NCBI GenBank assembly: GCA_020055845.1
Contig: JAGVIV010000217.1
Coordinates: 1 to 46,029, forward strand
DNA length: 46,029 nucleotides
Reading direction: 5' to 3'
Origin: Betaproteobacteria bacterium
GTDB lineage: Bacteria; Pseudomonadota; Gammaproteobacteria; Burkholderiales; Gallionellaceae
In this document: one piece after another, positions 12,991 through 32,684 of the stretch
How positions within the stretch are numbered: the stretch's first letter is position 1
How the letters are laid out: each line of letters starts with the position of its first letter
The notes under the pieces: model-generated
Told to the model about the DNA's origin: nothing
What the model saw: only the letters and a program-made list of their open reading frames with translations
Databases searched by the model: none
Program-made: the position numbers and the translations under genes

Positions 12991-14121
12991 CTAACCTGCT
13001 TTAACCTGTATCCATTCTGAGCCGCGCACGTCACGATAAAGCGATGTGACAGCAGCATTTTTGTGACCGGCAATGGCTTGTCCAAAGTCCAGCCCGTACT
13101 GCTCGGTATAGAGTCGGATCGCCAAAGAGCGTATCTCATGGAACGTGGGAGGCGTTTTCCCTGCTTCGACTTTTATCTCAGCCAATACCACCGCTTTTTT
13201 AAACATTTGAGCTAATGAGTCACCTGACAGCGGGTCTCCAGGTTTACTAACTCCATGATGTCGGTTTTGATGGACAAGCCAGCGAGTGAGTATGGTGTCT
13301 CGGCATGATTTAATTACGCTGCCGACAGTCCACCCGTTCACTCCGACATAGTTGGGTATACGAATTTTCGTTTTCGTTTTTTGCTGAATGATACATAAGG
13401 CATCTGGCTCCGCCCATCCTGTACTTTTTTTGCCCTGTTTGAATTCAAAGCAGGTGATGTCTTCTCGACGCTGCGCAGTAACCAACGCAAGCTCCATCGC
13501 TCTTGCCAGCCACTTGTTTTTCAACTTTAGTGCGACTGAGTGAATCTTTTGGAAGTCCGTTATAGAAAGGCGTGATCTCTTGACCTTAATGGTTGGGTTG
13601 CGCGTCTTTAGGGGGATATTGTCATCCGCCCATCCTTCTTGAATGGCATCTTTCCAAATATCTATAGCTGCGGATCTCATGACTAATAACGATCCTGGTC
13701 TATCTTCGTAGCTATTCAGAATTTCAACAAAGTCGCGTACCTTGATAGAGGAAAAAATAGTTTCTTTACCCAAGAGTTTTTGCCACATGTTGATGTGACC
13801 TGTTTTATTCCTAATCGTGTTTTGTGCCAAGCCTCGCTTGCCAACCAGTTCAAGGTGACGAGTGATAACTTTTTCTACGGTAACGCCGTCTGATTGAGGA
13901 GTAATGATTGCGGCAAGTGCGGCGCTTCTGATGCTGGTATAGATTGCAGCATTCAATGCCCTCGCATCGTTTACTGCTTCCTCATGAGAAATACCCAAGC
14001 CATGCAACTTGCCGCTCTGAGGGTTGCGGTATGTGTAGTAAGTTTTTTCAGTGCGTTTGTCGTACTTCCTGTACAAATTGTCTGGAAGGTTGAAATTGCC
14101 TTGCTTGCGAGGGCGGCTCAT
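12991..14121 (-). CDS. Tyrosine recombinase (integrase)
   Basis: This 376-residue phage-type integrase has an N-terminal arm/core DNA-binding region (about 1-175). Its C-terminal catalytic domain carries Arg in VTAQRREDI, HEIR in PTFHEIRSLA, GHK, and the nucleophile Tyr in GHKNAAVTSLYRD. It would integrate and excise the accessory element. It lies at the element's left edge, next to tRNA-Arg(CCU). Its ATG overlaps the excisionase stop (ATGA), so the two are translationally coupled. Confidence 0.93.
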   Translation of the reverse strand: MSRPRKQGNFNLPDNLYRKYDKRTEKTYYTYRNPQSGKLHGLGISHEEAVNDARALNAAIYTSIRSAALAAIITPQSDGVTVEKVITRHLELVGKRGLAQNTIRNKTGHINMWQKLLGKETIFSSIKVRDFVEILNSYEDRPGSLLVMRSAAIDIWKDAIQEGWADDNIPLKTRNPTIKVKRSRLSITDFQKIHSVALKLKNKWLARAMELALVTAQRREDITCFEFKQGKKSTGWAEPDALCIIQQKTKTKIRIPNYVGVNGWTVGSVIKSCRDTILTRWLVHQNRHHGVSKPGDPLSGDSLAQMFKKAVVLAEIKVEAGKTPPTFHEIRSLAIRLYTEQYGLDFGQAIAGHKNAAVTSLYRDVRGSEWIQVKAG

Positions 14122-14339
14122 GCTGAACGAAGTATCCGTAGTGCGCGGTCAGACATGTTAGCGACTTCCGTAATTTCTTGCATGGGGATTCTAACCGCAC
14201 GTTCATCTACCATCAGTCTTTGGCCAACACGTTCTGGGGCAGGGCATATCTGTCCTGATTTAGCCCATGCTCTCAAGGTGCGTGCAGATGGGGCCGGTGA
14301 GTAGTTTCGTGCAGCCCATTCGGATATTGTGATTTTCAT
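14118..14339 (-). CDS. Excisionase-like DNA-binding protein
   Basis: The 73-residue protein resembles lambda-type Xis and MerR-like winged helices: KITISEWAARNY at the N-terminus, then SARTLRAWAKSGQI, where the recognition helix is followed by the wing. Such proteins direct integrases toward excision. It overlaps the integrase start (ATGA) and the upstream small gene's stop (TGATG), so int, xis and the small gene form a coupled set. Confidence 0.82.
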   Translation of the reverse strand: MKITISEWAARNYSPAPSARTLRAWAKSGQICPAPERVGQRLMVDERAVRIPMQEITEVANMSDRALRILRSA

Positions 14340-14479
14340 CACGCACCCTGCCGATATACATGTTGACTAAAAATACTTGTTGTGGAGATGGGAATCTCCT
14401 TCCATTTTGTATTTCGTTGCTGCGTCACTAAATGCATTTTGAGAAACTCTGTAGCCAGTTCAAAATTTAGCGTTTCCAT
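14339..14479 (-). CDS. Small hypothetical protein
   Basis: This frame of 46 residues begins METLNFELATEFLKMHL and ends with its TGA overlapping the excisionase ATG. That overlap is the main argument that it is real. A longer in-frame start at 14551 exists but would overlap the next gene more. No family is recognised. Confidence 0.45.
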   Translation of the reverse strand: METLNFELATEFLKMHLVTQQRNTKWKEIPISTTSIFSQHVYRQGA

Positions 14480-14492
14480 GATGATCAACCTG

Positions 14493-15125
14493 TTAGTAAT
14501 AAAATAGCTGACGCGTCTCGTCAAGCTGTTTTGGAACCACAGGGACTCCAATCTGCTGCGCTATGTCTGACCATGGAATATCACGGAAATTATTAAATAC
14601 GATTGTGCCGTCAACAGTTTCTAAGGTGATTACAGGATGCGGATGTCGAGACCAATTCATCGGTGGATGACGTTGGCTTGGAATTTTCCAGTACATGCCT
14701 TGATGCCATACATAGAGGGAGAAGGATCGCTTGCCAATTTCGATGAAGAAAGGCTCACTTTGCAATTTGCTTTGCATCAACCCGAGATTGTGTTGGCTGC
14801 ATGGCATCAGTTGCAGCTTTTGATAAGCAACAGCAACTGTTGGGTCTTTACCAATTTGTTTGAACTCGATTGGCTTGTCCTGAGGAGATGAAATAAAGTA
14901 GCCTGACATTTCCTGCCAAACGGGCACAAGGTATTGGTGATCACCATAAATGTTATTTTTACGATAGAGCAGGTCTGCCTTCTGCCAAGCATCTCTTGAG
15001 TCAGGTATGTACTTTTCAGTTTTCTCAGGCTCGCGCGAGAAGTTAAGCTCAATGTGCCACTGTCTAGGTGATTTATTGATCGAAAAAAATGTCGGTATCA
15101 ACAAATTTTTTATTGTTATTGCCAT
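14493..15125 (-). CDS. Hypothetical protein, 210 residues
   Basis: No family is recognised. The protein is soluble-looking, rich in aromatic residues and prolines, with no signal peptide or membrane segment. AAGGAAGAGC precedes the ATG well. It lies between the integrase set and the membrane protein gene, all on the minus strand, and is probably part of the same mobile element. Confidence 0.6.
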   Translation of the reverse strand: MAITIKNLLIPTFFSINKSPRQWHIELNFSREPEKTEKYIPDSRDAWQKADLLYRKNNIYGDHQYLVPVWQEMSGYFISSPQDKPIEFKQIGKDPTVAVAYQKLQLMPCSQHNLGLMQSKLQSEPFFIEIGKRSFSLYVWHQGMYWKIPSQRHPPMNWSRHPHPVITLETVDGTIVFNNFRDIPWSDIAQQIGVPVVPKQLDETRQLFYY

Positions 15126-15225
15126 GTGCTCTTCCTTATTAGGTAATTTCGTTTAAATTGATGATGCAAGCAACTCGCTTAAATATCCGTTGCACTAATT
15201 AGAGAAGGGAAATTTGTGACAGTCC

Positions 15226-16080
15226 CTAATTCTTTTTGGATGCAAGTAGAGCTCGCCTTATTGCGAGTGCTTTGTCCTGCCCGCAGTGCATGAATTTTCT
15301 AATTCCGGATACAGTCGCAGGGCATTCACCGGAATCTACTGCTGTGCGTAGTTCACCAATTGGGTCGTGCGCGATTTGCAACTCGTTGGCGACATTAGAA
15401 ATGCCGGATTGCCTAGGTAATCGCAGTGCAGTCCTCCAAAGTAACGCACCCATTAATTCTAGAAGAATCGCAAAAAATAGACTTACGACTAGGGTAATAC
15501 TGGTGGCGCTACTGCCGGTTACATATGCGATGCTGGTGACTACTGGATCGTTACTGGCCACTACTGCTGCAGTAGTGGCGGTAGCGGATAAGAGTATCAA
15601 ATCGTCACGGAGTACAGCGGCGCGCTTTGCTTCGGCTAGTTCAGCCCGCAATGCTGGCCGCTGCCTCCAGTCGTGAGAGCTGGCAAGTACATCCGCAACG
15701 ACAGCTATCGGACGCGACTTTATTGTTGCCAACGTCTCATTGGCGACTTTGATCTGACGCTCAATCTCAGTTTTTTGAACTGAATGCTGTGCGCGTACTT
15801 CTCCTGCGCGAATATTTGCATGCGTTAAGAAGGTGAGATGAACAAACACCGTTCCCAGCATGCAGCAAATCCACAAAAACCAAGCAGTCGGATGATTCGA
15901 AAATGCTAGGATAAAATGGGTGCCTGCGCAGATCGCAACATACAGAGCTATCATGAGCATCTGATCCAGAATTGTTCCCCCTCGATCAAGGGCAGAGACA
16001 GCAGCGATGGCCATGGCAGTCGCGGTGACACATGTAGCAAACGCTCTCGTACCCTTTGCAATAGACTGGTTATTTTGCAT
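15226..16080 (-). CDS. Membrane protein with cytoplasmic tail, next to Rep
   Basis: The 284-residue protein has hydrophobic segments near residues 13-32, 40-60 and 66-88, an amphipathic stretch with KTEIERQIKVANETL that may form a coiled coil, and two more segments near 162-180 and 193-215. A soluble C-terminal tail ends in GQDKALAIRRALLASKK. There is no Walker A motif, so it is not a Zot/pI-type ATPase. It overlaps the replication-protein gene by 11 bp and has a strong GGGGAG site. The function is unknown. Confidence 0.65.
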   Translation of the reverse strand: MQNNQSIAKGTRAFATCVTATAMAIAAVSALDRGGTILDQMLMIALYVAICAGTHFILAFSNHPTAWFLWICCMLGTVFVHLTFLTHANIRAGEVRAQHSVQKTEIERQIKVANETLATIKSRPIAVVADVLASSHDWRQRPALRAELAEAKRAAVLRDDLILLSATATTAAVVASNDPVVTSIAYVTGSSATSITLVVSLFFAILLELMGALLWRTALRLPRQSGISNVANELQIAHDPIGELRTAVDSGECPATVSGIRKFMHCGQDKALAIRRALLASKKN

Positions 16081-17206
16081 TCTGCTCCCCTTCGTTACTC
16101 ACGCGCCTGAATGCAGCCATTTTGCGGGGTCTTCCGGCACTTGATTTATCGCGGGGCAGCACTCCCTTGCTGAATACTCTGCAAGCGCTGCCAAGCTTCG
16201 TAGAGCGAAGATATTGCTCCTTTTTGCAAAGGTACTTGATGGCAAGTAGCAAGTTGCTCCGTTTCACTTCGTCGTTATGAGATATAGTCCCGATGCCTAG
16301 TCGCTTGTATTTATTTTTGCTCGCGTTGCAGTTGTAGTACGTACCTCTTCCTTCTGTTAGCTCCTGCCAATACTGAGAAATTTGTAGTGCTATGTAGCCG
16401 TCTTTAAATACCTTTGCTCCATCGTAGAAGAATACCGAGTGAAAATGTATGCCCTTCTCAGGCCCATCTTCGATCTTCAAGATATATCCGACACACGCTG
16501 CAAAAATTCTCTTGTTCCCTCTCCGGTTATTTAGAAAATGCTCTATGTCAGCCTTAGCATTCTCAACGGTAATGGTGTGCGCAATTTGATGTCGATAACC
16601 GAAATCAATCCGTATTACTTCAATTCTTGAAAATCGATCAAAAAGGCCATTAACATAAGTCACAGCGCTTTTATTGTTTCTTATGGAGTTGTACTCGCGT
16701 GCATCTACTAGCCGTTTGAACTCAGGTTTCCGACCTGCGTTTCCAATCCACATCACAACGTCATTAAAAATTTCAAAGTGCAATTTACCGGGGAATAAAG
16801 ACTCAGCTCTGGGGGTGGTGAACCTCACCATTTCTAACCCTAGGGCTGTATAGCATTGACGGAACAATTCAACGTGTGCGCTGTAAGTAAGGTCTGACAT
16901 GACATCGTTCTTAAACCGGTTGAATTGAGTAAAGTATCGAGCAAGAGGACGCTGCTCTAGCACTGCGTTTCCAATCTTAATTTCGTTTCTTCTCGCTTGT
17001 CTTTCAGTCAAGACAAACGCTGGCTGAGCGGTATTAATAGCCTCCATCACAAATTCTTCAAGAAGGTGTAGGCCATTACCGAATTGCATACCTAGCATGG
17101 TGGTTGGTTTACCCTCAACTTCGGTCTCGAATATGTTTGCATCAACATCGATCATTTTGTACGTGTCTAGCGCTGACATATCAGTGCTGTAATCAATTGT
17201 GTCCAT
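16070..17206 (-). CDS. Inovirus-type Gp2 / YagK-YfjJ replication-like protein
   Basis: The 378-residue protein resembles the inovirus Gp2-like (DUF3296) group, thought to be HUH-type rolling-circle initiators. It has RIEVIRIDFGYR as motif 1, GIHFHSVFFYDG as the H-hydrophobic-H metal motif, and SNLLLAIKYLCKKEQY with Tyr and Lys for the nicking site. YagK and YfjJ are cryptic-island proteins of E. coli. It would nick the element's origin, perhaps in the upstream gap at 17207-17812. No phage capsid or assembly genes are nearby, so a satellite or plasmid-like element is more likely than a filamentous phage. Confidence 0.75.
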   Translation of the reverse strand: MDTIDYSTDMSALDTYKMIDVDANIFETEVEGKPTTMLGMQFGNGLHLLEEFVMEAINTAQPAFVLTERQARRNEIKIGNAVLEQRPLARYFTQFNRFKNDVMSDLTYSAHVELFRQCYTALGLEMVRFTTPRAESLFPGKLHFEIFNDVVMWIGNAGRKPEFKRLVDAREYNSIRNNKSAVTYVNGLFDRFSRIEVIRIDFGYRHQIAHTITVENAKADIEHFLNNRRGNKRIFAACVGYILKIEDGPEKGIHFHSVFFYDGAKVFKDGYIALQISQYWQELTEGRGTYYNCNASKNKYKRLGIGTISHNDEVKRSNLLLAIKYLCKKEQYLRSTKLGSACRVFSKGVLPRDKSSAGRPRKMAAFRRVSNEGEQNAK

Positions 17207-17812
17207 TCCTTTTCCTTCAAGTTTTTCCTATTTCAAGATTGATTTAATAGTTAACTAACTGATATTAATAATATATATATCCAATATTCGGCCTCTCTAA
17301 AAAATGATCTATTCTTTACCTTTCAATTGCAGATCGAATGAAAATGCCAGTCTGCAATTAACTTATTTGCATACAAAGTTATGCGCGATTTAATGTCTTA
17401 AAATCAAATAATTAATCCTATAAAATTGTTGTTAATAATTGCGAACTCAGTTCAACAACTGCACTTCCTGAATGAAAATAGATTCCCTCTGCAACCGTCT
17501 TGCGGAGCAGAATATTTGGATTGAATATTTAGGGTCAATTTGAAAAATAGGCGAGGAATAGGCGAAGCCTTATTTAACAAGGGTTGCAGCGCACCATCCT
17601 CGACTGTTCTTCGACAATAATTTTTTGAAGAGGGATCGTTTTTGCCAGTAAGGTGATCATGGCTTAAGCCAAGAGGCTCACTGAAGTTGCTACGATGGCG
17701 GTGCTATTTGAAAGGCGAGGTGGCGTGACTGCTGATTTAACTACAAGGCAGTGTTGCTAAATTAGATGCGCTGCATGTAATGGTACTTTAGGCGATGCCG
17801 ACATTATGTCGC
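17207..17812. other. AT-rich gap upstream of the Rep-like gene; possible origin
   Basis: No convincing gene is seen here. Visible structure includes an inverted repeat AATTGCAGA (17325-17333) / TCTGCAATT (17351-17359) with a 17-nt loop, and a direct repeat AATAGGCGA at 17546 and 17557 (11-bp period, iteron-like). There is also a very AT-rich tract around 17250-17285. This is where a rolling-circle origin for the Gp2-like protein would be expected, but no nick site can be proven. Confidence 0.4.
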
Positions 17813-19279
17813 TTATGTCCGATGAGTAATTACTGATGAATAAAACTCAGGGAATAAATTTACCAATATATTGGGAGCATTGCTTTTGCGGCGGCCTGAG
17901 GATTCGCATCCGCAAAGCCCTTTCAGGTACGTGTTAAATGTACGTTGAGATTCGTAGTCCAGAATTGGATCGAATTTCCCAGCAGCGATTCGGAGTTGCT
18001 CTCTACTGCAAGGTAACTGATGTATCTCAACTACTAGGCCATCTTTAGCTGCACGATCAACGATTGTTGCCAGAAATTTGCGCATGCCTTCGACAAATGC
18101 AGGAGGTGTAGTGCTATTGGACTGCGGATTTTCACGTATGAATGTTTGCAATTCGGCGTGCGTAATTTGAATGTCGTCCTGTGTTATTTCAATAGGACAG
18201 CATTCATTCCCGCTAAATGCACGCCACGCGGCTCTTGAAAACGCAGGATCAGCATAGCCAGTGAGTCTTAGAATGGGTTTGCCAAAACTCAAAACATACC
18301 CCCTTGGAAAATCACTTTGCACCATTTTTTGATGTTCTAAAATTTGTTTGCAATGCCAGTCTTCCAAAATTAATTTTTCAGGGGGCGGGAGAATCTTTGC
18401 AATACCCTTAGTTTCACTATATTTATCAAATGGGTACAAACTTACCCCATCTGGAATAGGAATGCACAACTTGATTTTGTTTTCACTGGCAGCTTCTAGC
18501 AATTTATTTTCCGAGCAATTTGCTTTTTTAGCGGCCTTTGTCAATGAAAGGTACTGCTCATCCTGCGGGTAATTTGGGTTGCTTAAAGGCTTCTGAACTG
18601 CCTGATGACTGGTTAGTGTGATGACTCTGTTTGTACCGTCACCCACTAGGCGTAAAAGTTGTAATGTACCAAAACGTGGATAAAGGCTATGACCATTCTT
18701 CGATAGCGCAATGTGCCTCTGCTCTATTAATCTCTCCCTAATACTCAGTGGAGTATCGCGAGTTATGCTCCCAGCACTAGATAAACGAAGCAATTCTGCT
18801 GCCCCGATGAATTTGTAACTCCCGTTTGCGGCGATTAAGGCAAATCGTTCTGTTTTACGCTCTCCTCTGGAATCCTTTGTTACCGTAAATGTAACCGCAA
18901 CGCCGATCCGACTGTGAAATCGGAATCGGCATGAGCGAGCACTCCATCGAACATTTGAATCTGGACAGCATAAAAAAAACCCTAATCGGCCTTCCTGCAG
19001 CTTTACCACTAATTTTGATTTCCTTGTTATAGAGCGACTTGTTGAATCTATGCTGAAATTTTCTCTGGCAAATGGAAGCATTTTTCGCTGTGCATTTGAT
19101 GGGGCTAAAATAATACGCGCTCTTGCCAGTGGGGCTGTTCTTGGCATGGCTAAACGCATTTTTGCGCCCATGTTTAAAAATGAGAATGAGGCATTTTTTT
19201 TACTCGGTTCAGATGGAATGAGATGAGCTGTTTCTTCCAAGCCTTCTGCGACCGGTACATGCTGATTCTTCGAAACCAT
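17813..19279 (-). CDS. Orphan protein with HTH-like segment, 488 residues
   Basis: No family is recognised. The N-terminal 90 residues are basic and probably disordered (KNASFSFLNMGAKMR...ARIILAPSNAQR). The middle has paired cysteines (FFLCCPDSN...RSCRFRF). Around residues 240-275 there is an excisionase/HTH-like stretch (YLSLTKAAKKANCSENKLLE) of the kind found in prophage proteins. I chose ATG 19279 because CTAGGGAG stands just upstream; a TTG at 19309 is less likely. It is alone, divergent from the methyltransferase operon. A role in regulation or DNA binding is a guess. Confidence 0.6.
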   Translation of the reverse strand: MVSKNQHVPVAEGLEETAHLIPSEPSKKNASFSFLNMGAKMRLAMPRTAPLARARIILAPSNAQRKMLPFARENFSIDSTSRSITRKSKLVVKLQEGRLGFFLCCPDSNVRWSARSCRFRFHSRIGVAVTFTVTKDSRGERKTERFALIAANGSYKFIGAAELLRLSSAGSITRDTPLSIRERLIEQRHIALSKNGHSLYPRFGTLQLLRLVGDGTNRVITLTSHQAVQKPLSNPNYPQDEQYLSLTKAAKKANCSENKLLEAASENKIKLCIPIPDGVSLYPFDKYSETKGIAKILPPPEKLILEDWHCKQILEHQKMVQSDFPRGYVLSFGKPILRLTGYADPAFSRAAWRAFSGNECCPIEITQDDIQITHAELQTFIRENPQSNSTTPPAFVEGMRKFLATIVDRAAKDGLVVEIHQLPCSREQLRIAAGKFDPILDYESQRTFNTYLKGLCGCESSGRRKSNAPNILVNLFPEFYSSVITHRT

Positions 19280-19818
19280 GACGCTCCCTAGCGCTTCAAT
19301 TTTAAGCAAGTTTACAGACAGAACACTTCAAGCCTAACCTACAAGTTATGCGGATTTGATACAAGTTACGAGGATCATTGTAAATACATGTGGTTGCAGT
19401 GCTCCATCTGTGTTTGCTATTTTACCTCTTGGCTATCCAAATTTACCTTCCTCGACGCTTCCCCGCTTCAACGCATCTGCGAAATTAAGGCTTCTGCTCA
19501 GCGTACCTTCCATTTTTGAAGCTATCGCCTCCGTCATATTGTTGACCGCCACGGTAAATTTTAACTGGCCGACCTGGTTTATATGAAGCAGCAACACAGA
19601 GCCTGATCTATATATAAGGACGAGCATTCGATTGGTTGGCATTGCTGCTATTAGCCTGTCTGTATCGCTGATATATGTCCAGCCATCTCATTTTGACAGA
19701 TCTTGAAACACTATGAGTACCTCACGGTCAATCATTTACAATACAGCCCACAGTGCCACGTTAGTCATTGAACTTCGAACGGACACGAGCGGAAATAATC
19801 ACACAGGCAAGATGCTCC
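19280..19818. promoter_or_regulatory. Divergent regulatory gap upstream of the methyltransferase
   Basis: There is no firm gene in this 539-bp gap. A near-direct repeat, ACAAGTTATGCGGAT at 19341 and ACAAGTTACGAGGAT at 19361, has a 20-bp period (two helical turns) and could be an operator pair for either divergent gene. A 69-codon minus frame at 19433-19642 is open but has a poor ribosome-binding site and no known relatives. Confidence 0.4.
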
Positions 19819-22608
19819 ATGAATGCAGTAGAAATCGAAGAAGCCATATCTGATTTAGCCCTTCAACCCTTCGATGCGGCTGAGTTTCCATTCGAGTTCC
19901 TGGCCGCTTTCGGCAATAAGGACACAGCACTCAAGCGCCTGCGTACTGGCAACAACAATGCTTCTGACGTGCCCGGTGGCGTACTCCAGCGTAACTACAT
20001 CCATATTGCCGTGTGCGAAGCTGGCAGCGTGGGTGAATCCCTCAAGGCGTTGCGCGCCAGCCCTGCCACCACAAAAGCCAAGGCCAAGTTCATTCTCGCC
20101 ACGGATGGTCAGACTCTGGAAGCTGAAGAATTAGCCGGAGGCGAAACCATCGCCTGCGCCTACCAAGACTTTCCCAACCATTTCGGGTTCTTTCTGCCGC
20201 TGGCTGGCATTTCCACTATTAAGGAGATCAGGGACAACCCCATCGACGTGCGCGCCACTGCGCGGCTGAACAAGCTATACGTCGAATTGCTAAATGAGAA
20301 CCCCGAATGGGCAAAGGATGAACGCCGCGCTGACATGAATCACTTCATGGCACGGCTGGTGTTTTGTTTTTTTGCCGAAGACACCGATATTTTCAACGGC
20401 ACTGGTTTGTTCACCCAATCTATTGAGCAGATGAGCGAGCGCGATGGCTCGAATACCCATGAAGTAATGCAATCCATCTTCCGTGCCATGAACATCAAGG
20501 ATGCCGAGCGCGCCAATGCCGAGCCCCGTTTGCCAAACTGGGCAAATGGCTTCCCTTATGTGAATGGCGGCCTGTTCTCCGGCAGTACCGAAGTGCCGCG
20601 TTTCACGCGCATGGCGCGCTCCTACCTGATACACGCAGGCAACCTGAACTGGCAACAGATCAACCCCGACATCTTCGGCAGCATGATTCAAGCCGTGGCC
20701 GATGACGAAGAGCGCGGCTCCTTGGGAATGCACTACACCAGCGTGCCCAACATCTTGAAGGTGTTGAACCCCTTATTTCTGGATGACTTGCGCGCCGTTT
20801 TGAACGAGGCAGGCGATAACAAAATCAAGCTGCTGAACTTACGCAAGCGCATGGCGCGTATTCGCGTGTTTGACCCAGCCTGCGGCTCCGGCAATTTCTT
20901 GGTTATTGCCTACAAGCAGATGCGCGAGATCGAGGCAGAAATTAACCGCCGCCGTGGCGAGCGCTTGGGTAGCGAGATTCCGCTAACCAACTTCCGTGGC
21001 ATCGAGCTGCGCGACTTTCCAGCGGAAATTGCTCGCTTGGCGCTCATCATTGCCGAATTCCAATGCGACGTACTGTATCGAGGGCAGAAGGATGCGCTAG
21101 CGGAATTCCTGCCGCTGGATGCTCAGAATTGGATTGTTTGCGGCAATTCGCTCCGGTTGGATTGGTTGAGCATTTGTCCCCCAACGGGTACAGGCGTGAA
21201 GCTGGTGGCTGATGATTTGTTTGGTACGCCGCTAGACCAAGCGCAGATTGATTTTCAGAATGAGGGGGGTGAGACATATATTTGCGGAAATCCGCCATAT
21301 CTAGGTTCAGTTTATCAGACAGATGAACAAAAATCCGATTTGAGAGCGGTGTTTGAGCGATACACCTCTGATTGGAAATCATTGGATTATGTCGCTGGAT
21401 GGTTTCAAAAAGCAGCCCAATACGGAACTCAAACAATGGCGGTGTCGGCATTTGTATCCACCAATTCAATTTGCCAAGGTGAGCAGGTTCCTATTCTCTG
21501 GCCACTGATTTTCAAGACTGGGCATCAAATTTCATTCGCCTATAGGTCGTTCAAGTGGGCTAACTTAGCGAGCAATAAAGCTGGCGTAACTGTCGTAATT
21601 GTTGGAATTTCGGCTGCGCCACATGCGAAGCGCATGCTGTTTGATTCAGATTTTGCGGGTGTCGAGCACGTTAAGCTGACCGACAATATTGGTCCATATC
21701 TTGTGTCTGGGCCAAACATCACAGTTGAAGCAACAAGCGGCGTGCCTGATGAGAGAGGGAAAATGATACGGGGTAACATGGCTAATGATGGCGGGCATCT
21801 AGTGCTTACTGCTTATGCTGCCGAACAGATTGTCGCCAGTTACCCCGATGCCGCTAAGTTCATCAAGATATTCGTTGGTTCGAGGGAATTCATCAACTCA
21901 CTGCCGAAATATTGCATATGGATCGAGGATGATGAACTTGAAGAAGCAAGTCAATTTCCACCAATTTTGGAACGCATCGAAAAAGTAAAAAAGGCAAGAA
22001 TGCAGGGAGGGCAACAAGCAAGAGACAGTGCGAACACTCCGCACCGATTTGTATTTGCGCCGCATCGAGACGGTGCAGCGATTATTGTTCCTCGTGTCTC
22101 CTCCGAAAATCGAGAGTATCTTCCAGTCGGTGTCACGGATGGCGGTATCGTTGTAAGTGAAAGAAACTTCGTGCTCTACAACGCGCCTCTATGGAATATG
22201 GCTCTAATCGCCTCGCGCTTGCACTGGGTCTGGATTGGAACAGTCTGCGTAAGAATGCGCACCGATTTTTCGTACTCTAACACCCTCGGCTGGAACACCT
22301 TTCCCGTGCCGTTGCTCACCGAGCAGAACAAGGCTGACTTGACCGCTTGTGCCGAAAACATTCTGTTGGCGCGAGAATCCCATTTTCCGGCCACCATCGC
22401 CGACCTATACGACCCGGCCACCATGCCGGATAATCTGCGCCATGCCCACGAACGCAACGACGAAGTGCTGGAGCGTATCTACATCGGTCGCCGCTTTAAG
22501 AACGACACAGAGCGGCTGGAAAAACTGTTTGAAAATTATACGAAGATGACGGCGGTAGCGACCAAGGCGAAGCCTGCTATCAGAGCGACAAGGGGAATGA
22601 AAACATAA
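19819..22608 (+). CDS. MmeI-like adenine-specific DNA methyltransferase
   Basis: This 929-residue protein has the MmeI-family layout. The N-terminal region (FPFEFLAAFGNKDTALKRL) is followed by the helical spacer (MARLVFCFFAEDTDIF, about 176-191), the methyltransferase domain and a C-terminal target-recognition region. Motif I is VFDPACGSGNF (about 349) and motif IV is CGNPPY (about 490), typical of N6-adenine enzymes. The D...ExK nuclease residues of true MmeI are not evident, so it probably only methylates. I use ATG 19819, where family similarity begins; a TTG at 19768 is possible. TAATG overlap with the helicase gene shows an operon and suggests a restriction or defence system. Confidence 0.85.
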   Translation: MNAVEIEEAISDLALQPFDAAEFPFEFLAAFGNKDTALKRLRTGNNNASDVPGGVLQRNYIHIAVCEAGSVGESLKALRASPATTKAKAKFILATDGQTLEAEELAGGETIACAYQDFPNHFGFFLPLAGISTIKEIRDNPIDVRATARLNKLYVELLNENPEWAKDERRADMNHFMARLVFCFFAEDTDIFNGTGLFTQSIEQMSERDGSNTHEVMQSIFRAMNIKDAERANAEPRLPNWANGFPYVNGGLFSGSTEVPRFTRMARSYLIHAGNLNWQQINPDIFGSMIQAVADDEERGSLGMHYTSVPNILKVLNPLFLDDLRAVLNEAGDNKIKLLNLRKRMARIRVFDPACGSGNFLVIAYKQMREIEAEINRRRGERLGSEIPLTNFRGIELRDFPAEIARLALIIAEFQCDVLYRGQKDALAEFLPLDAQNWIVCGNSLRLDWLSICPPTGTGVKLVADDLFGTPLDQAQIDFQNEGGETYICGNPPYLGSVYQTDEQKSDLRAVFERYTSDWKSLDYVAGWFQKAAQYGTQTMAVSAFVSTNSICQGEQVPILWPLIFKTGHQISFAYRSFKWANLASNKAGVTVVIVGISAAPHAKRMLFDSDFAGVEHVKLTDNIGPYLVSGPNITVEATSGVPDERGKMIRGNMANDGGHLVLTAYAAEQIVASYPDAAKFIKIFVGSREFINSLPKYCIWIEDDELEEASQFPPILERIEKVKKARMQGGQQARDSANTPHRFVFAPHRDGAAIIVPRVSSENREYLPVGVTDGGIVVSERNFVLYNAPLWNMALIASRLHWVWIGTVCVRMRTDFSYSNTLGWNTFPVPLLTEQNKADLTACAENILLARESHFPATIADLYDPATMPDNLRHAHERNDEVLERIYIGRRFKNDTERLEKLFENYTKMTAVATKAKPAIRATRGMKT

Positions 22609-24734
22609 TGATCGAAAAAACCAGCAACCCGACCAATGCCTACACCGTGCCGTCAGTGTCCATCACCACGGGGCGCACCGGCGCATCCAGCAAAGCCAAT
22701 GCGCTGGGAATGCGCGCCATGCAAGAGCGCGCTTACGCCAAGCGTGGTGAACAATATTTGCTGATTAAATCGCCACCAGCATCGGGCAAATCCCGAGCGC
22801 TGATGTTTATCGCGCTGGACAAGCTCAACAATCAGGGCGTGCAGCAGGCCATCATCGTTGTGCCCGAGCGTTCCATCGGCAGCAGCTTTGCCGATGAACC
22901 TCTGAGCCAGTATGGCTTTTATTGGGATTGGCAGGTCGCCCCGCAATGGAATCTGTGCAACGCTCCTGGTGTAGACGAGCCACGTGTGGCCAAGTCCAAG
23001 GTGGACGCGGTGCGCAAGTTTTTGGAAAGTACCGACAAGTTGCTAGTTTGCACCCATGCCACCTTTCGCTTTGCGGTCGAAGAGCTGGGCGTTCAGGCAT
23101 TCGATAACCGCCTGATTGCCATTGATGAGTTTCATCACGTCTCCAGCAACCCTGGCAACGTGCTGGGCAGTCAGTTGGGTGCATTCATCACACGCGACAA
23201 GGTGCACATGGTTGCAATGACCGGTTCCTACTTCCGAGGCGACAGCGAAGCCGTGTTGGGGCCGGTGGACGAGGCCAAGTTCGAGACGATCACTTACACC
23301 TACTACGAGCAGCTTAACGGCTACCAGTGGCTTAAATCGCTGGACATCGGTTACTTCTTCTACACGGGAGCTTACGTTGATGCCGTCACCAAGGTGTTAG
23401 ACCCGGCATTAAAAACCATCGTCCATATTCCCAATGTGAATGCCCGCGAAAGCCTCAAAGATAAAGAGCGCGAGGTGAATGAAATCATGCAGGGCTTGGG
23501 TGAATGGAAAGGCGTTGACCCGGTTACCAGCTTCCATCTGGTACAGGGCAAAGATGGTCGCACCCTGAAGGTGGCGGACTTAGTGGATGACAGCGATCCG
23601 GTAAAGCGTTCCAAAGTGCTTACCGCTTTGAAAGACCCGTTGCAGAAGAATAACCGCGATCACGTGGATGTCATCATCGCACTGGGTATGGCGAAGGAAG
23701 GTTTTGATTGGATATGGTGCGAACACGCATTGACCATTGGCTATCGCAGCAGCTTGACTGAAATCGTGCAGATCATTGGCCGCGCCACCCGTGATGCAAA
23801 AGGCAAGGAGCGGTCACGCTTCACCAATCTAATCGCCGAACCCGCAGCCGAACAAGCAGCAGTGGCCGATGCGGTAAATGACATGCTCAAGGCTATTTCC
23901 GCCAGCTTGCTGATGGAACAGGTGCTAGCCCCGCGTTATGAGTTCACACCAAGAAACAACGGCCCGAAGGAAGGCTTTGATTACGGCGAGGAAGGTTACA
24001 AGAACGACAAACACAACATCGGGGTTAACACGGACACCGGCGAAATTCATGTGGAAATCAATGGGCTGTCAACACCACAAAGCCCTGAGGCTACGCGCAT
24101 CTGCAAGGAGGACTTGAACGAAGTTGTCACCAGTTTTTTGCAGAACAAAACCGTGCTGGAACGCGGCTTGTTCGACAAAGAAAACACCCTGCCGGAAGAA
24201 CTGACCCAGTTGCACATGGGCAAGATCGTGCGCGAGCGTTACCCAGACTTGAGCGATACTGACCAAGAGGCCATTCGACAACACGCTATCGCTGCAATGA
24301 ACATCACACAGCAGGCCAAGCTGGCCTTGGCACAGGCAGATGCTCTTGGTGGTACTGGCGACGGCACAATACAAGGCAGTACGGCCTTGCTGGATGGAGT
24401 GCGCAAGTTTATCAACGTGCGCGACTTGGACATTGACCTGATCGACCGCATCAACCCCTTCGATGCAGCCTATGCTGTGTTGGCGAAAGCGATGGATGAA
24501 AAATCGCTGCGCCAGGTGCAGGCCAGTATTGCCGCCAAGAAGGTGAGCATCCCTGTAGATGAAGCCCGCGATTTGGCAAAGCGCGCTTTGCAGTTCAAGA
24601 ATGAGCGAGGCCGCCTGCCGGACATCAACGCCGCCGATGCATGGGAAAAGAAAATGGCTGAAGGTGTGGCCGCTTTCGCGCGTTACAAGGCTCAGGACTT
24701 GGCGGCTAAGCAGAGCGAGGAAAGCAATGGCTGA
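22608..24734 (+). CDS. SF2 (DEAD/DEAH-type) helicase of the defence operon
   Basis: The 708-residue helicase has motif I SPPASGKSRAL (about 52-62), motif II IAIDEFHHV (DEFH in place of DEAH), motif III MTGSYF, and motif VI QIIGRATRDA (about 387). ATP-driven translocation on DNA is expected. The C-terminal third has no recognised domain. Its start overlaps the methyltransferase stop and its stop overlaps the GIY-YIG gene start by 8 bp, so the three proteins are probably made in fixed proportion and may work as a complex, like the motor subunit of type I or III restriction enzymes. Confidence 0.87.
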   Translation: MIEKTSNPTNAYTVPSVSITTGRTGASSKANALGMRAMQERAYAKRGEQYLLIKSPPASGKSRALMFIALDKLNNQGVQQAIIVVPERSIGSSFADEPLSQYGFYWDWQVAPQWNLCNAPGVDEPRVAKSKVDAVRKFLESTDKLLVCTHATFRFAVEELGVQAFDNRLIAIDEFHHVSSNPGNVLGSQLGAFITRDKVHMVAMTGSYFRGDSEAVLGPVDEAKFETITYTYYEQLNGYQWLKSLDIGYFFYTGAYVDAVTKVLDPALKTIVHIPNVNARESLKDKEREVNEIMQGLGEWKGVDPVTSFHLVQGKDGRTLKVADLVDDSDPVKRSKVLTALKDPLQKNNRDHVDVIIALGMAKEGFDWIWCEHALTIGYRSSLTEIVQIIGRATRDAKGKERSRFTNLIAEPAAEQAAVADAVNDMLKAISASLLMEQVLAPRYEFTPRNNGPKEGFDYGEEGYKNDKHNIGVNTDTGEIHVEINGLSTPQSPEATRICKEDLNEVVTSFLQNKTVLERGLFDKENTLPEELTQLHMGKIVRERYPDLSDTDQEAIRQHAIAAMNITQQAKLALAQADALGGTGDGTIQGSTALLDGVRKFINVRDLDIDLIDRINPFDAAYAVLAKAMDEKSLRQVQASIAAKKVSIPVDEARDLAKRALQFKNERGRLPDINAADAWEKKMAEGVAAFARYKAQDLAAKQSEESNG

Positions 24735-25908
24735 GATGGATGATGACGAACTGCTGGACGCGCTGGGTGTTGAAGTCACCCCGCTTAAGGTTTCCAGCCG
24801 AACCCCGCAGGAGGAACGCATCATCGCGGGCTTTGAGGACATCCTACGCTTCCATCAAGCGCATGGCCGCGCCCCGCTGCATGGCGAGGGGCGTGACATC
24901 TTTGAACGATTGTATGCCGTGCGCTTGGATCAGCTACGAAAATTACCAGAGGCACACACACAGTTGGCTGAGTTGGATGGCCCAGGTCTGCTGTCTGGTG
25001 TGGCAGCTGTTCATGTCGATGTGGATGACTTAGACGAGGATGCCTTGCTGGCCGAGCTGGGTATTGGCGTTGAACCCGCCGATCAAAACGACATCACCGT
25101 ATTACGTCATGTACGTTCTAGCGTTGAAAAACGTGCGGCAGAGGAAATTGCCGACCGCACATCATGCAAAGATTTTGACAAGTTTCAACCGCTATTTGAA
25201 CGTGTGGAGCGGGAGTTGAAGGCGGGCATTCGCAAAACGCTGCGCTTCGGAGGCGATGCTAGCATTGCCATAGGGAGCTACTTTATCGTCGGCGGGCAGC
25301 TTGCGTATGTGGCCGAAATTGGCGAAATGACCAAGACACAAAGCGGACATGACGATGCACGCTTGCGGTTGATTTACAACAATGGCACGGAAAGCAATTT
25401 GCTAATGCGCTCACTCCAAAAGGCGCTTTTCAAAGATGAGACTGGCCGCCGCCTGACCGACACGGATATGGGGCCGCTATTTGGGGACGCGCCGGAAACA
25501 GACGACATTGCTTCCGGCACAATCTACGTGTTGCGCAGCCTATCCAGCCACCCATTCGTCGCCGAACACCGCGAACTGATCCACAAAATCGGCGTGACAG
25601 GCGGCAAAGTGGAAGCCCGCATTGCAGGCGCAGAAAAGGACGCAACCTATCTGTTGGCCGAAGTGGAAATAGTTGCCGAATACAAGCTCCACAACCTGAA
25701 CCGCACTAAGCTGGAAAACATCTTCCACCGCTTGTTTGGAGCCGCGCAGCTCGACTTAACTATAGAAGACCGTTTCGGCCATCCAGTGAAGCCGAGAGAG
25801 TGGTTTCTGGTGCCGCTCCAAGTGATTGACGAAGCGGTTGAGCGAATTCGTGACGGTTCAATTACCGAAGTGATCTACGACCCGAAGACGGCTCGGTTGG
25901 AAGGTTGA
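24727..25908 (+). CDS. GIY-YIG nuclease protein of the defence operon
   Basis: The 393-residue protein has an acidic N-terminus (MAEMDDDELLDAL), a helical middle with another acidic stretch (DVDDLDEDALLAELG), and a C-terminal GIY-YIG domain of the T5orf172/MUG113 type. That domain has IYVLRSL (about 264), HKIGVTGG (about 285), an Arg in EARIAG and LENIFHRLF with the Glu. It is the likely DNA-cutting subunit for the methyltransferase-helicase pair. The ATG at 24727 overlaps the helicase stop; upstream frame is open but inside the helicase gene. The repeated DDDELLDALG/DEDALLAELG motif may be an interaction element. Confidence 0.83.
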   Translation: MAEMDDDELLDALGVEVTPLKVSSRTPQEERIIAGFEDILRFHQAHGRAPLHGEGRDIFERLYAVRLDQLRKLPEAHTQLAELDGPGLLSGVAAVHVDVDDLDEDALLAELGIGVEPADQNDITVLRHVRSSVEKRAAEEIADRTSCKDFDKFQPLFERVERELKAGIRKTLRFGGDASIAIGSYFIVGGQLAYVAEIGEMTKTQSGHDDARLRLIYNNGTESNLLMRSLQKALFKDETGRRLTDTDMGPLFGDAPETDDIASGTIYVLRSLSSHPFVAEHRELIHKIGVTGGKVEARIAGAEKDATYLLAEVEIVAEYKLHNLNRTKLENIFHRLFGAAQLDLTIEDRFGHPVKPREWFLVPLQVIDEAVERIRDGSITEVIYDPKTARLEG

Positions 25909-25995
25909 GCGCGTGAAGTACAGACCTTTTCAGTACAAGAAAAACACCGATGCCTATATGAACACCGGTGAATTAAATGGCCAATTACTGCAACC

Positions 25996-26301
25996 TCATT
26001 TCTGAGGTAGTGACAGTAAGTTGTCAGTCTTGCGACCATCGGCAATGGTTTGAACATACTTGATTCGACCATTGCTGTGGACATGAACCCAAGCCCCTGT
26101 AAGTTGCGGATTACGGTCAGGGCACCACACAGAGCTATTTCCGTTCTTTTCGATGTAGGCAACCATCTCTTCCCGGGTGGAATTACCGCTTTGAAGCACC
26201 TTTCTGGACTCATCAACCTGATCCCACCAGAGGTGGCTGATGTGCTCATGTCCTGTGCCGCCTGCCATGCGTCGTGCCGTGCATTTGATTGTCGTTGCCA
26301 T
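25996..26301 (-). CDS. DUF3892 protein
   Basis: The 101-residue protein begins ATTIKCTARRMAGGTGHEHI and contains WWDQVDESRK, EEMVAYIEKNG and VHVHSNGRIKYVQT, matching DUF3892. The family is small and uncharacterised and is often found near mobile elements. I start at ATG 26301, preceded by AAAGGG. It is divergent from the XRE gene and shares its operator region, so the XRE protein may also control it. Confidence 0.78.
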   Translation of the reverse strand: MATTIKCTARRMAGGTGHEHISHLWWDQVDESRKVLQSGNSTREEMVAYIEKNGNSSVWCPDRNPQLTGAWVHVHSNGRIKYVQTIADGRKTDNLLSLPQK

Positions 26302-26335
26302 GTTAAAGCCCTTTATGTAAAGCGCCAAATATGAA

Positions 26336-26415
26336 AAGTTCGGTGTAGGCGCACTAATAGTATCTGACTATAAAATCCTATTGTCAAGCAAAATTAATAC
26401 GCCTACACTGAACTT
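26336..26415. promoter_or_regulatory. Divergent promoter with two inverted operator arms
   Basis: The arms AAGTTCGGTGTAGGCG (26336-26351) and CGCCTACACTGAACTT (26400-26415) are inverted repeats with one mismatch in 16. Rightward, TTGTCA (26381-26386) and TACACT (26404-26409) are 17 bp apart, and the right arm covers the -10. Leftward, TTGACA (complement of 26382-26387) faces GATACT at 17 bp, with the left arm near the start of transcription. Each arm can block one promoter. The likely binder is the XRE protein encoded next door. Confidence 0.75.
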
Positions 26416-26435
26416 CTGAGTTTAGGGGGGAAATT

Positions 26436-26756
26436 ATGGCGACCATTATTGGCGAAAAAATACGAGCACAAAGAAAGCTCATGAAGTTGACGTTGGATCA
26501 GCTCGCAGAGAAGACAGGATCAAGCAAGAGCTACATCTGGGAACTAGAAAACCGTCCTGTAGTGAGGCCATCTGCGGAGAAAATATCCCGCATAGCCGAA
26601 GTTTTTGGAGTCACAGTGGAGTTCCTTCTTGATGATGAGAAGCAGGAAATCACCAGTACCGATGCTGATCAAGTTTTTTTTCGTCGTGTTTCACAGCTAG
26701 ATTCAACAAAACGCGCACAGCTCGAAAAATTCTTGAAAGCAATCGACGATGAGTGA
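26436..26756 (+). CDS. XRE-family repressor, partner of ImmA/IrrE
   Basis: The 106-residue protein has an N-terminal Cro/C1 HTH: IRAQRKLMKLTLDQLAEKTG, SKSYIWELENR, and ISRIAEVFGVTVEFLL. A strong AGGGGGG site precedes the ATG. Its gene overlaps the ImmA/IrrE gene by 8 bp. In such pairs (for example ICEBs1 ImmR-ImmA) the protease cleaves the repressor under DNA damage. Here the pair lies beside the defence operon and on its own divergent promoter, so autoregulation is likely. Confidence 0.88.
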   Translation: MATIIGEKIRAQRKLMKLTLDQLAEKTGSSKSYIWELENRPVVRPSAEKISRIAEVFGVTVEFLLDDEKQEITSTDADQVFFRRVSQLDSTKRAQLEKFLKAIDDE

Positions 26757-27636
26757 TCCGACAACACCTGTAGCATGGGGCATTCAACTTTCAAAGCTTT
26801 GGCTTGCTAGTGGTCAAAGTTTCCCTGTCAGGGTGAAGGACATCGCACTTGAGGTTACGAGAACGAAATTTGCCGACCCGGTAGGTTGCGTGATCCCACA
26901 CGGAATTGCCGGGATAGATGGCATGCTCTCGAAGCGCCTGAAGAAAAATGACTGGTGCATCTCTTATGACGAGAAAGTGACCGTGCCAGGGCGAATCAAT
27001 TTCACAACTGCTCACGAACTCGGACACTACCTACTACATCGGCAACAGCGCGACACATTCCAATGCGGCCAAGTACAGATAATAGAGTACGGCAGCCCCG
27101 AGTCTAAGCGCATCGAGTCGCAGGCCAATACTTTTGCGTCTTACTTGCTAATGCCAAGAAATGACTTCGACACCCAAATAGCCGGTCACGAATTGTCATT
27201 TGAGCTGCTAGGCCACTGCGCTGACCGCTACGAAACCTCCCTAACGGCCACAGCATTAAAATGGTTGGAGTTCACAGCGGAAGCCGCTATGTTGGTAGTT
27301 GCCGACCACGATGAGTTCATCTGCTGGTCGTACTGTAGTCGTGCGGCAAGGCGTATCGGTGCATACATTTCACCGGGGCAAGAAGTACCGGCATCGGTAC
27401 AGGAACATATGAGAAGCAATGCGCTAGCTGTTAGTGAACCTCGGCGTGTCGCGGCAGGTGTATGGCACTCTACAGAGGAAGCTGTTGAGTCCGTCATCGT
27501 GTCGGATCAGTTTGAACAGAACATCTTCTTGATTCGGTTTCCACTTGCATTGATGGTAGACCACGCAGAAGAACCCGAGACGGATACGTTCACCGTGTTT
27601 GAGGAAAACGGTCAGGGGCTAAACTGGAAGAAGTAG
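26749..27636 (+). CDS. ImmA/IrrE-family metalloprotease
   Basis: The 295-residue protein carries the zinc motif HELGH at about residues 89-93 in NFTTAHELGHYLLH. A second part, ESQANTFASYLLMPR, provides the third ligand Glu as in COG2856. It is expected to cut its XRE partner and relieve repression. It overlaps the repressor gene. The C-terminal about 120 residues, with VADHDEFICWSYCSRA and RFPLALMVDHAEE, are longer than in minimal ImmA and may sense a signal, as the GAF-like part of IrrE does; that part is inference. Confidence 0.87.
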   Translation: MSDPTTPVAWGIQLSKLWLASGQSFPVRVKDIALEVTRTKFADPVGCVIPHGIAGIDGMLSKRLKKNDWCISYDEKVTVPGRINFTTAHELGHYLLHRQQRDTFQCGQVQIIEYGSPESKRIESQANTFASYLLMPRNDFDTQIAGHELSFELLGHCADRYETSLTATALKWLEFTAEAAMLVVADHDEFICWSYCSRAARRIGAYISPGQEVPASVQEHMRSNALAVSEPRRVAAGVWHSTEEAVESVIVSDQFEQNIFLIRFPLALMVDHAEEPETDTFTVFEENGQGLNWKK

Positions 27637-31448: not shown

Positions 31449-32018
31449 CTACAGAAGTCCTCGTTCTGCGAAGCTGAGTACGTTTGACTCTGCCACAATG
31501 AAGTGGTCGAGCACTCGAACATCAACCAAGCTGAGAGCTTGTTTTAGAGCAGTGGTGAGGAGCTGGTCTGACTGACTGGGTTCGGCAACGCCTGAAGGGT
31601 GGTTATGGGCAAATATGACGGCTGCTGCGTTCTCCCTCAATGCTGCCTTAACCACTTCACGAGGATAGACCGAGGTTTGCGTTAGCGTGCCTCGGAATAA
31701 CTCATCGACTACGATTACCTGATGCTGAGCGTCGAGGAAAACTGCTACGAACGACTCATGCTCGCGTCCTGCAAAATGCATCTTCAGATAATCCCGCACG
31801 TTAGCCGGAGAGTTCAGCATATCGCCATGCTTGATTTCTTCTCCCAGCCATCGTTTGACCAACTCCCTTGCAACAAAACATTTTTCAGGCTGCTTATCTC
31901 CCCCATGTGCAGGAGAAAACATCGCCGCTAGAGATCCGCGATAATGCTTCTGTGTTTGTCGTACACCGATAAGCTTGCTAAGCAAGTCGGCATCCGACAA
32001 TGTTGAATAGATGTTCAT
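31449..32018 (-). CDS. radC: RadC-like JAB-domain protein
   Basis: The 189-residue protein has the JAMM zinc motif in [17 protein letters not shown] near residues 140-156, preceded by [21 protein letters not shown], as in RadC. The helix-hairpin-helix N-terminal domain of chromosomal RadC is short here, which is usual for copies on plasmids and islands. The role is not settled despite the name 'DNA repair protein'. A very strong GGAAGGAGG site precedes it, 15 bp after the clamp gene. Confidence 0.88.
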
Positions 32019-32033
32019 GGCTTTCCTCCTTCC

Positions 32034-32684
32034 TTAGGCAACCAATCGAACGATCTCAGGTTCACTCACCGGCTCTTGAACCCATGCTGGCGAAGATTTA
32101 CTTGGCTCTACTTTGAGCGGCATCGTGACTACCAAGAACCCCTCATCAATGACAGACATGCCGGAACTGTTCCCATTATGGGCAATGCCAGTAAATAACT
32201 TGTAGCCCAGAATCGAACACGCTTTATCAATGCGGTTGACGAACTTCGGATCAAATTGGGCAATAGTGCCATCCACTTCAGCGGGAACTACACGGCGGTA
32301 TTCGGGATATTTCCCGTCCAGTTCTTTAGCCGTCGTAGTGAGCTCACCAAACGTCAGGGTAATGTCACGGGCAATAAACGCACCTTTATCAGCCCCACTT
32401 TTCTTGTACGACTGCGTGCCTTCTTTGAATTCCAGCACCACATGCTGCGGCCCCTTGGCTTTGGTTTTAACTGCCGCCACTAAGCTGCCGGGAATAATAA
32501 TGGTGGCATTTGGATAGCAGCCCTCCAATTTAGCAACGGCAAGTTGATGGCCATCGCAGCCGACAAGTCTGGCACCAAAGGCACCCGTTTCGAGATACAG
32601 GCCGTTTAAGTAATAGCGAATATCTTCAACGCCCCGAAATAGTGAAGCAGCGGCGAAGATGTCTGTGTTGATTGTTATGTTCAT
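32034..32684 (-). CDS. Shortened beta-clamp-like protein
   Basis: The 216-residue protein looks like the second and third domains of DNA polymerase III beta. It has EDIRYYLNGLYLE, VGCDGHQLAVAKLE and YPEYRRVVPAE, which correspond to RYxLNG, ATDGHRLA and FPDYRRVIP in DnaN. A full clamp has three domains and about 366 residues. This one would need a different ring stoichiometry (for example three copies of two domains) or may bind polymerase partners without a ring. The context is RadC, YqaJ and a ligase, so it belongs to element replication or repair. The ATG 32684 follows AAGGAG inside a 6-bp inverted repeat (GTTTGT/ACAAAC). Confidence 0.75.
   Translation of the reverse strand: MNITINTDIFAAASLFRGVEDIRYYLNGLYLETGAFGARLVGCDGHQLAVAKLEGCYPNATIIIPGSLVAAVKTKAKGPQHVVLEFKEGTQSYKKSGADKGAFIARDITLTFGELTTTAKELDGKYPEYRRVVPAEVDGTIAQFDPKFVNRIDKACSILGYKLFTGIAHNGNSSGMSVIDEGFLVVTMPLKVEPSKSSPAWVQEPVSEPEIVRLVA

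Follow-up and report, generated by a model that had tools for sequence, protein, structure and literature searches.

The closest described relative of the locus analyzed here is the dnmA(yeeA)-yeeB-yeeC cluster of Bacillus subtilis. Its DNA methyltransferase DnmA (YeeA) modifies the non-palindromic sequence GACGAG, is reported to have no endonuclease activity, and is listed among MmeI homologues that lack the endonuclease motif, with yeeB and yeeC flanking the gene; the suggestion made for this arrangement was that it resembles a type I system (PMC7261158, citing Morgan et al. 2009). The synteny of the three genes is conserved, and a 2011 survey counted homologues of YeeB and YeeC as putative antiphage genes (PMC9973331). 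N6-methyladenine (m6A) affects promoters (PMC7261158, PMC9973331), and deletion of dnmA and of yeeB in Vibrio crassostreae raised sensitivity to some phages (Piel et al., reported in PMC9973331). We analyzed contig JAGVIV010000217.1 of a Betaproteobacteria bacterium (46,029 nt; this whole stretch of DNA is the window), which carries at positions 19819-25908 of its forward strand an overlapping trio of genes for an MmeI-type methyltransferase, a superfamily 2 (SF2) helicase, and a GIY-YIG protein. The trio is a copy of the published cluster and not a new system; the initial annotation had described it as unlike textbook systems, but the same arrangement was already in the literature as dnmA-yeeB-yeeC (PMC7261158, PMC9973331). 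What is new is an all-or-none link between loss of the methyltransferase's nuclease site and the presence of YeeB and YeeC, together with the clade formed by the nuclease-less enzymes, the selection acting on their dead nuclease domain, the exchange of their target-recognition domain (TRD), the conservation of two acidic motifs in YeeC, and the frequent presence of defense-type cargo in the interval before the helicase gene.

We drew matches to MmeI_Mtase from 398 genomes sampled evenly across the phylum and retrieved, in addition to the window locus, the 30 strongest MmeI-type loci and 10 weaker ones. Enzymes with a frame of at least 800 amino acids (aa) were testable (26 of the 30); the four that were dropped because their open reading frame (ORF) was shorter or split were L109, L116, and L121, which have YeeB and YeeC, and L118, which does not. 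Downstream YeeB and YeeC accompany all of the nuclease-less enzymes (18/18) and none of the nuclease-bearing ones (0/8; Fisher test, P = 6.4e-7). At L096 and L103 the two genes lie on the same strand past a longer insert, 8.3 to 8.9 kb from the methyltransferase-domain match. All 10 weaker MmeI-type enzymes have the nuclease motif, and none has a YeeB-YeeC partner.

The link is equally tight when followed from the helicase. YeeB occurs in 23 and YeeC in 25 of the 398 genomes (∼6%), and in 22 of the 23, YeeB shares contig and strand with an MmeI-type methyltransferase that precedes it, with 0.9 to 8.9 kb between matches. The 23rd genome (G195) has a partial match cut by a contig end (match start, contig base 137). 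Chance association is excluded, and the initial annotation's treatment of the three genes as one unit is borne out. Three of the 25 YeeC matches are without this context: those in G168 and G195 start at contig bases 425 and 1167, and the one in G131 is a broken remnant. We also assembled a second set of 80 loci (L001 to L080) picked by helicase, with up to 10 kb of flank. Here a methyltransferase is found upstream in 77 loci, the other three (L005, L013, and L080) having just 0.3 to 1.5 kb of upstream contig, and a YeeC match is likewise found in 77, with contigs that end too early at L035 and L048 and a true exception, L049, that is taken up below. Relatives also occur on plasmids, where 264 of 72,556 records match YeeB (146 of them over 80% or more of the query length), and in Escherichia coli, with a minimum of 91 carriers among 5,426 complete genomes.

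The window methyltransferase (19819-22608, + strand; 929 aa from its ATG) is a DnmA/YeeA-like N6-adenine enzyme with all five MmeI domains in Pfam (MTase, 1.9e-117; TRD, 2.4e-77; N-terminal, 1.1e-33; spacer, 3.7e-25; C-terminal, 2.9e-18) and a match to the MmeI crystal structure 5hr4 (E = 6.3e-139). Alignment with MmeI places its gamma-class methyltransferase domain (PF20473; DPACGSGNF ... NPPY) at 20800-21642, the NPPY motif being present, and its TRD (PF20466) falls at 21709-22314. The N-terminal domain (MmeI_N, PF20464; 19819-20295) belongs by homology to the PD-(D/E)XK nuclease family, in which the catalytic residues of MmeI are D70, E80, and K82 (PMC4833311). In the window, GVLQRNYIHIAVCEAG (19978-20025) occupies the place of the D-x9-E-x-K site, and the aligned stretch reads GVLQRNYIHIAVCEAGS where nuclease-competent enzymes have IDLFWKGVLLVEQKS; the nuclease residues are therefore gone, though the domain is still recognizable. 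The initial annotation had proposed such a loss, and the alignment agrees. D-x9-E-x-K has no occurrence in 71 of 72 enzymes from L001 to L080 or in the 18 YeeBC-linked enzymes of the even sample. A regular-expression hit to the motif in L067 was set aside as chance on reading the aligned stretch.

Selection still acts on the dead domain. Across 313 pairs (44 sequences) with backbone dS of 0.05 to 1.0, the median ratio of nonsynonymous to synonymous substitution (dN/dS) rises from 0.075 in the C-terminal domain and 0.085 in the methyltransferase domain through 0.12 in the dead domain and 0.17 in the spacer to 0.24 in the TRD, the last value being based on 102 pairs; the methyltransferase and TRD values suffer from saturation (median dS, 1.18 and 2.03). 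At 0.12 the dead domain is not decaying but under purifying selection, so it has kept a function, which we infer to be the docking of YeeB or YeeC. In a tree of the catalytic core (46 rows, mostly from one phylum, with nuclease-domain and TRD columns removed), the 28 YeeBC-linked enzymes form one clade (support, 98/92), which is sister to nuclease-competent MmeI, is kept in 97% of 200 bootstrap trees, and takes in Staphylococcus, Niallia, and Vibrio plasmid copies. Because the outgroup has the nuclease motif, loss of the nuclease is probably derived, and a single loss would be the simplest history.

The TRD follows a different course from the rest of the locus. It is hypervariable (median pairwise identity, 0.43 over 73 sequences), and its identity between loci is uncorrelated with that of YeeB (rho 0.01, 68 rows), while dead-domain identity tracks both YeeB (0.86) and YeeC (0.82). 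Median TRD identity is 0.45 even in the 115 pairs whose YeeB proteins are >90% identical. Eleven E. coli loci were inspected and six compared; these six hold four TRD alleles (0.37 to 0.51 identical) beside YeeB and YeeC proteins that are each 96 to 99% identical, and L133 and L160 have an allele in common together with YeeB genes that are 97% identical. Since a cutter of fixed specificity would attack its host after a TRD swap, free exchange argues that the methyltransferase sets the target. Judging from these comparisons, a cutter with a fixed specificity of its own is unlikely, and YeeB and YeeC should follow the methyltransferase as HsdR follows HsdS/HsdM.

Both partner proteins retain the residues expected of a motor and a nuclease. 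The YeeB-like SF2 helicase/translocase (22608-24734, +; 708 aa) has weak Pfam scores (DEAD, 9.8e-7; ResIII just below the cut-off at 0.00023; RE_endonuc not matched), and its Walker A (GKS; 22770-22793), DEFH (23124-23135), and QIIGRxTRD (23769-23795) motifs are invariant across 50 sequences. A structure model (predicted local distance difference test, 74) returned general SF2 matches in a fold search, LlaBIII among them. The YeeC-like protein (24727-25908, +; 393 aa) matches MUG113 (3e-12) and T5orf172 (3.5e-11) in Pfam, with its GIY-YIG domain at 25510-25854 by Pfam and the structure model, and Y267, K287-I288-G289, R298, and E330 are invariant across 56 sequences. A nuclease-less methyltransferase beside an intact motor and intact GIY-YIG residues is consistent with cutting and movement apparently coming from separate proteins, as first annotated.

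YeeC also has two leucine-rich acidic motifs, DDDELLDALGV at 24739-24771 and LDEDALLAELGI at 25030-25065. The first is net acidic in 51/51 rows that cover it (5 of the 56 YeeC rows begin too late) and the second in 56/56, with mean net acidic fractions of 0.34 and 0.33, respectively, versus 0.05 for whole YeeC (56 rows). Bacillota and Vibrio YeeC proteins, 30 to 35% identical to that of the window, have counterparts (e.g., LDDIFSDDLFDDL). The acidic repeats of the initial annotation are thus real and conserved, and the partner docking that it attached to them could be their role; both appear in the model as short, low-confidence helices, which could suit docking motifs. We made no use of a KOW/SH3-like central YeeC domain, which was weak (the best PDB match, eIF5A, had E = 5.2e-3 at a root mean square deviation [rmsd] of 15, and an EF-P domain had E = 0.1 with 47 columns superposed at rmsd 2.2), or of a weak F-x(5)-GR-x-P stretch common to the end of YeeB and the start of YeeC (hhalign P = 0.0047, probability 7.5%). 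Among YeeB and YeeC profile matches there was no natural functional fusion of the trio proteins, their open frames being separate. A frame at L061 (9974-12262) joins YeeB to the end of YeeC and is degenerate, and we rejected it as a sign of a complex because GIY and YIG are missing and the methyltransferase is broken too.

In the window, the three genes overlap end to end (19819-22608, 22608-24734, and 24727-25908), as the ORFs and the DNA around the starts confirm for the overlapping operon first annotated. The methyltransferase and helicase genes share 1 nt (TAATG, helicase ATG at 22608), and the helicase and yeeC genes share 8 nt. The methyltransferase frame is already open from a TTG at 19768, and homologues begin at the ATG at 19819 (MNAVEIEEA...); yeeC starts, as in homologues, at 24727 and not at the ATG at 24559.

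Based on these observations, we think it fairly probable that the trio is a restriction-modification locus of the dnmA-yeeB-yeeC kind carried by an integrative island, with the methyltransferase as specificity and assembly subunit, YeeB as motor, and YeeC as cutter; restriction by this locus is likely. By analogy with DnmA, the methyltransferase would recognize a non-palindromic site through its TRD and methylate one adenine, since GACGAG has adenines on one strand only. The dead N-terminal domain and spacer would hold YeeB and YeeC. On unmodified DNA, YeeB would be loaded and move along the duplex, and YeeC, given its intact residues, would cut with its GIY-YIG domain. Because marking one strand leaves one daughter unmodified after replication, cutting would probably need two opposed sites that communicate through YeeB. 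Type III and type ISP enzymes work by such communication between two sites in opposite orientation. We put forward more tentatively, as a possibility somewhat short of an expectation, that the family may form a separate ATP-dependent restriction class in which a type IIL nuclease was lost once, the dead domain became a hub for motor and GIY-YIG cutter (partly through the YeeC acidic motifs), the TRD became portable in the manner of HsdS, and cutting takes two opposed sites. In the parts of the literature surveyed, we met no description of a dead-domain hub or of a two-site rule for this cluster.

Several observations weigh against a working restriction locus of this kind. The nuclease-competent enzyme at L115 comes from a genome (G150) that also has YeeB and YeeC ∼177 kb away, beside a different, split methyltransferase, and L049 has methyltransferase and YeeB with YeeC missing. 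At the YeeC position of L049 (12186-14114) we observed a 643-aa frame without a Pfam or PADLOC match, perhaps a replaced effector. The correlation of the N-terminal domain with YeeB (partial r, 0.85) is not proof of docking, since exchange of methyltransferase-TRD cassettes that spare the start of the gene could yield it, and the YeeC model (predicted template modeling score, 0.39) found no GIY-YIG structure among the 50 PDB rows listed. The experimental record from B. subtilis also runs the other way, and it leads to the proposal, made for that species, that the cluster is a relic, with the methyltransferase effectively an orphan epigenetic enzyme and YeeB and YeeC idle passengers. Deletion of dnmA, yeeB, or yeeC is reported there to have had no effect on three phages (PMC9973331), deletion of dnmA left plasmid uptake unchanged (PMC9973331, PMC7261158), and the promoter effects of m6A point the same way. 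Degenerate copies fit as well, including L061, the split methyltransferase of L121, and the plasmid records with partial YeeB. We nonetheless consider the relic reading unlikely, because the motor and nuclease residues are invariant, YeeB is coupled to a methyltransferase in 22 of 23 genomes, the dead domain is under purifying selection, and the Vibrio deletions do have a phage phenotype (PMC9973331). Also improbable, in our judgment, is that YeeB and YeeC act with the methyltransferase as an abortive or replication-blocking effector that does not cut at a distance. BREX is thought to act in such a manner, and Fic, PIN, and Schlafen-type proteins are among the cargo of related operons. The DnmA motif is moreover not depleted in the phage genomes sampled, which suggested a mechanism unlike classical restriction (PMC9973331). 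Against an effector stand the strictly conserved GIY-YIG residues (56 sequences) and the finding that neither the operon nor the set of ten PADLOC-scanned proteins (12991-27633) includes PglZ or a BrxC-type protein.

Two further explanations concern which genes belong to the unit. In PADLOC 2.0.0 the methyltransferase comes out as a type IIG restriction enzyme (PDLC03598, 5.7e-285), and the nuclease domain is retained, as would be expected if the enzyme cut through a cryptic site as a stand-alone type IIG/IIL protein with unrelated helicase and GIY-YIG neighbors. We give this hardly any credence, because D-x9-E-x-K is missing throughout the YeeBC-linked enzymes (18/18, and 71/72 of the helicase-selected set), the genes are coupled in 22 of 23 genomes, and DnmA is reported to lack endonuclease activity (PMC7261158). 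The other explanation adds genes: a helix-turn-helix (HTH) gene and an M78 peptidase gene at 26436-27636 match PADLOC capH (2.6e-25) and capP (6.5e-56), CapH and CapP control adjacent immune operons (PMC13373217), and one genome (G410) has YeeB and a distant CapP-like match (28%) ∼15 kb apart, so the trio and this pair could form a five-gene, DNA-damage-induced defense operon under the pair's control. This is quite improbable in view of the 80 helicase-selected loci, which hold no capH homologue and only four weak CapP-like matches (L018, L037, L071, and L078). The pair also lies downstream of the trio with an opposite-strand DUF3892 gene (25996-26328, −) between them, and an operator-like inverted repeat at 26338-26415 (GTGTAGGCG at 26343 and CGCCTACAC at 26400) sits only beside capH, between it and the divergent DUF3892 gene, with no copy before the methyltransferase gene. 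We thus rejected capH-capP as a conserved partner of the trio and found no basis in conservation or a shared operator for placing the trio among CapH-CapP-regulated operons; the RptR paper (PMC12255303) mentions CapH and CapP just in passing, and the Zymomonas paper (PMC8432527) had no bearing on the locus. As the genes after the pair are on the other strand, it may control the island itself and not the trio.

The restriction-modification reading can be set against named systems one protein at a time. The B. subtilis cluster agrees with the window in protein families, gene order and strand, nuclease-less methyltransferase, SF2 helicase, and C-terminal T5orf172/GIY-YIG domain; compared by description only, its YeeB and YeeC reportedly differ in that parts of the C-terminal region are missing (PMC9973331). 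Homologues in V. crassostreae form the same gene set, again by description. Two Bacillota copies (L155 and L156) have YeeB 45 to 46% and YeeC 30 to 31% identical to those of the window, and a Vibrio alfacsensis copy has 47% and 35%. MmeI, a type IIL enzyme that is not known to need a helicase, has in common with the window methyltransferase its five-domain architecture, including MTase and TRD. Unlike the window enzyme, it is a single chain that includes an active PD-(D/E)XK nuclease of its own (PMC4833311).

Type I systems (HsdRMS) resemble the trio in a motor and nuclease that, as we suppose for the trio, rely on a separate methyltransferase-specificity module, in an exchangeable recognition domain, and in RhuM-type accessory genes near both kinds of locus. 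The trio differs in having no HsdS, in dividing motor and nuclease between two proteins, and in a nuclease that is GIY-YIG and not PD-(D/E)XK, and none of the three proteins matches HSDR_N or Methylase_S in Pfam. With type III and type ISP enzymes (EcoP15I, LlaBIII) the trio would have in common one-strand methylation of a non-palindromic site and an ATP-dependent motor. Those enzymes fuse motor and nuclease in Res or in one chain, whereas the trio has no RE_endonuc match and a separate GIY-YIG protein. DISARM sets DrmA, DrmB, and DrmC beside a methyltransferase, and BREX comprises PglZ, BrxC, and PglX; in the ten PADLOC-scanned proteins we found only a DrmMI resemblance of the methyltransferase for the former and, for the latter, a weak PglX resemblance far below NCBIfam cut-offs. 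The initial annotation would have been refuted had defense finders placed all three genes in a named system; PADLOC does so only for the methyltransferase, with its type IIG label, and has no close model for YeeB or YeeC. In the window, YeeB has weak PbeA matches (4.1e-5) and YeeC none; a Staphylococcus copy gives PbeA (1.3e-11) and PDC-S57 (1.4e-6) matches that span only portions of its proteins.

The interval between methyltransferase and helicase holds no cargo in the window. It is shorter than 150 bp in 52 of 96 loci and reaches at least 700 bp in 39 (38 without L121, with its split methyltransferase). We observed defense-type genes, DUF1016/YhcG among them, in this slot across L001 to L080 and L093 to L122, with up to ∼7 kb in G013 and G068. 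Scanning covered 45 of 53 candidate frames (the eight omitted are mostly short, one being the second half of the L121 methyltransferase), and a protein could have several domains: 14 had DUF1016, 6 HATPase_c_4, 5 Schlafen AlbA_2, 4 RhuM, 3 PDDEXK_4, 2 each Fic, GmrSD_N, and AlkZ-like domains, and 1 each PIN and AAA_15. HsdM_N occurs in 5 of 52 scanned neighbors of RhuM genes (20 loci; 52 of 124 frames), and RhuM cargo is suggestive of a further likeness to type I loci.

The island that carries the trio ends at a tRNA-Arg(CCT) gene (12816-12890, −) beside a lambda-type integrase gene (12991-14121, −), and its G+C content is lower than that of the left flank. A search of the window for exact repeats of at least 14 bases did not turn up the tRNA end a second time, so the other island end lies outside the window or has diverged. 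YeeB is absent from 6 of 7 same-genus genomes searched, with a fragment in G402, and this near-absence suits a recent arrival. In the same-genus genome G401, the tRNA-Arg match falls in two parts ∼7 kb apart (contig C3, 84623-91663), perhaps another element at the site. Between integrase and trio is a weak YagK/YfjJ match (16070-17206) just under the Pfam cut-off, and in E. coli L133 and L163 the trio adjoins BRO-N and inovirus Gp2/YagK genes, with intF also at L133. Downstream of the trio, the DUF3892 gene and the HTH-M78 pair, which is CapH/CapP- or ImmR/ImmA-like, are followed by a recombination module (31452-38031) with RadC, a beta-clamp-like protein, a Gp3-like directionality factor (RDF-like), YqaJ, DUF932, and a DNA-ligase domain that forms part of a WGR protein.

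Relatives of YeeB and YeeC occur in ∼6% of the sampled genomes, yet the sole detailed three-gene study that we came across treats the cluster of B. subtilis as a relic (PMC9973331). Of the papers surveyed by title and the start of the abstract, with subscription papers mostly outside coverage, none dealt with the helicase and nuclease as a working system, and the methyltransferase carries a type IIG restriction enzyme label in PADLOC 2.0.0 despite its lost nuclease site. The E. coli loci, with at least four natural TRD alleles on near-identical motor and cutter genes, make the role of yeeB and yeeC readily testable. If the dead domain is a hub, the family would clearly illustrate how the nuclease domain of a restriction enzyme can give up catalysis and take on a role in assembly.

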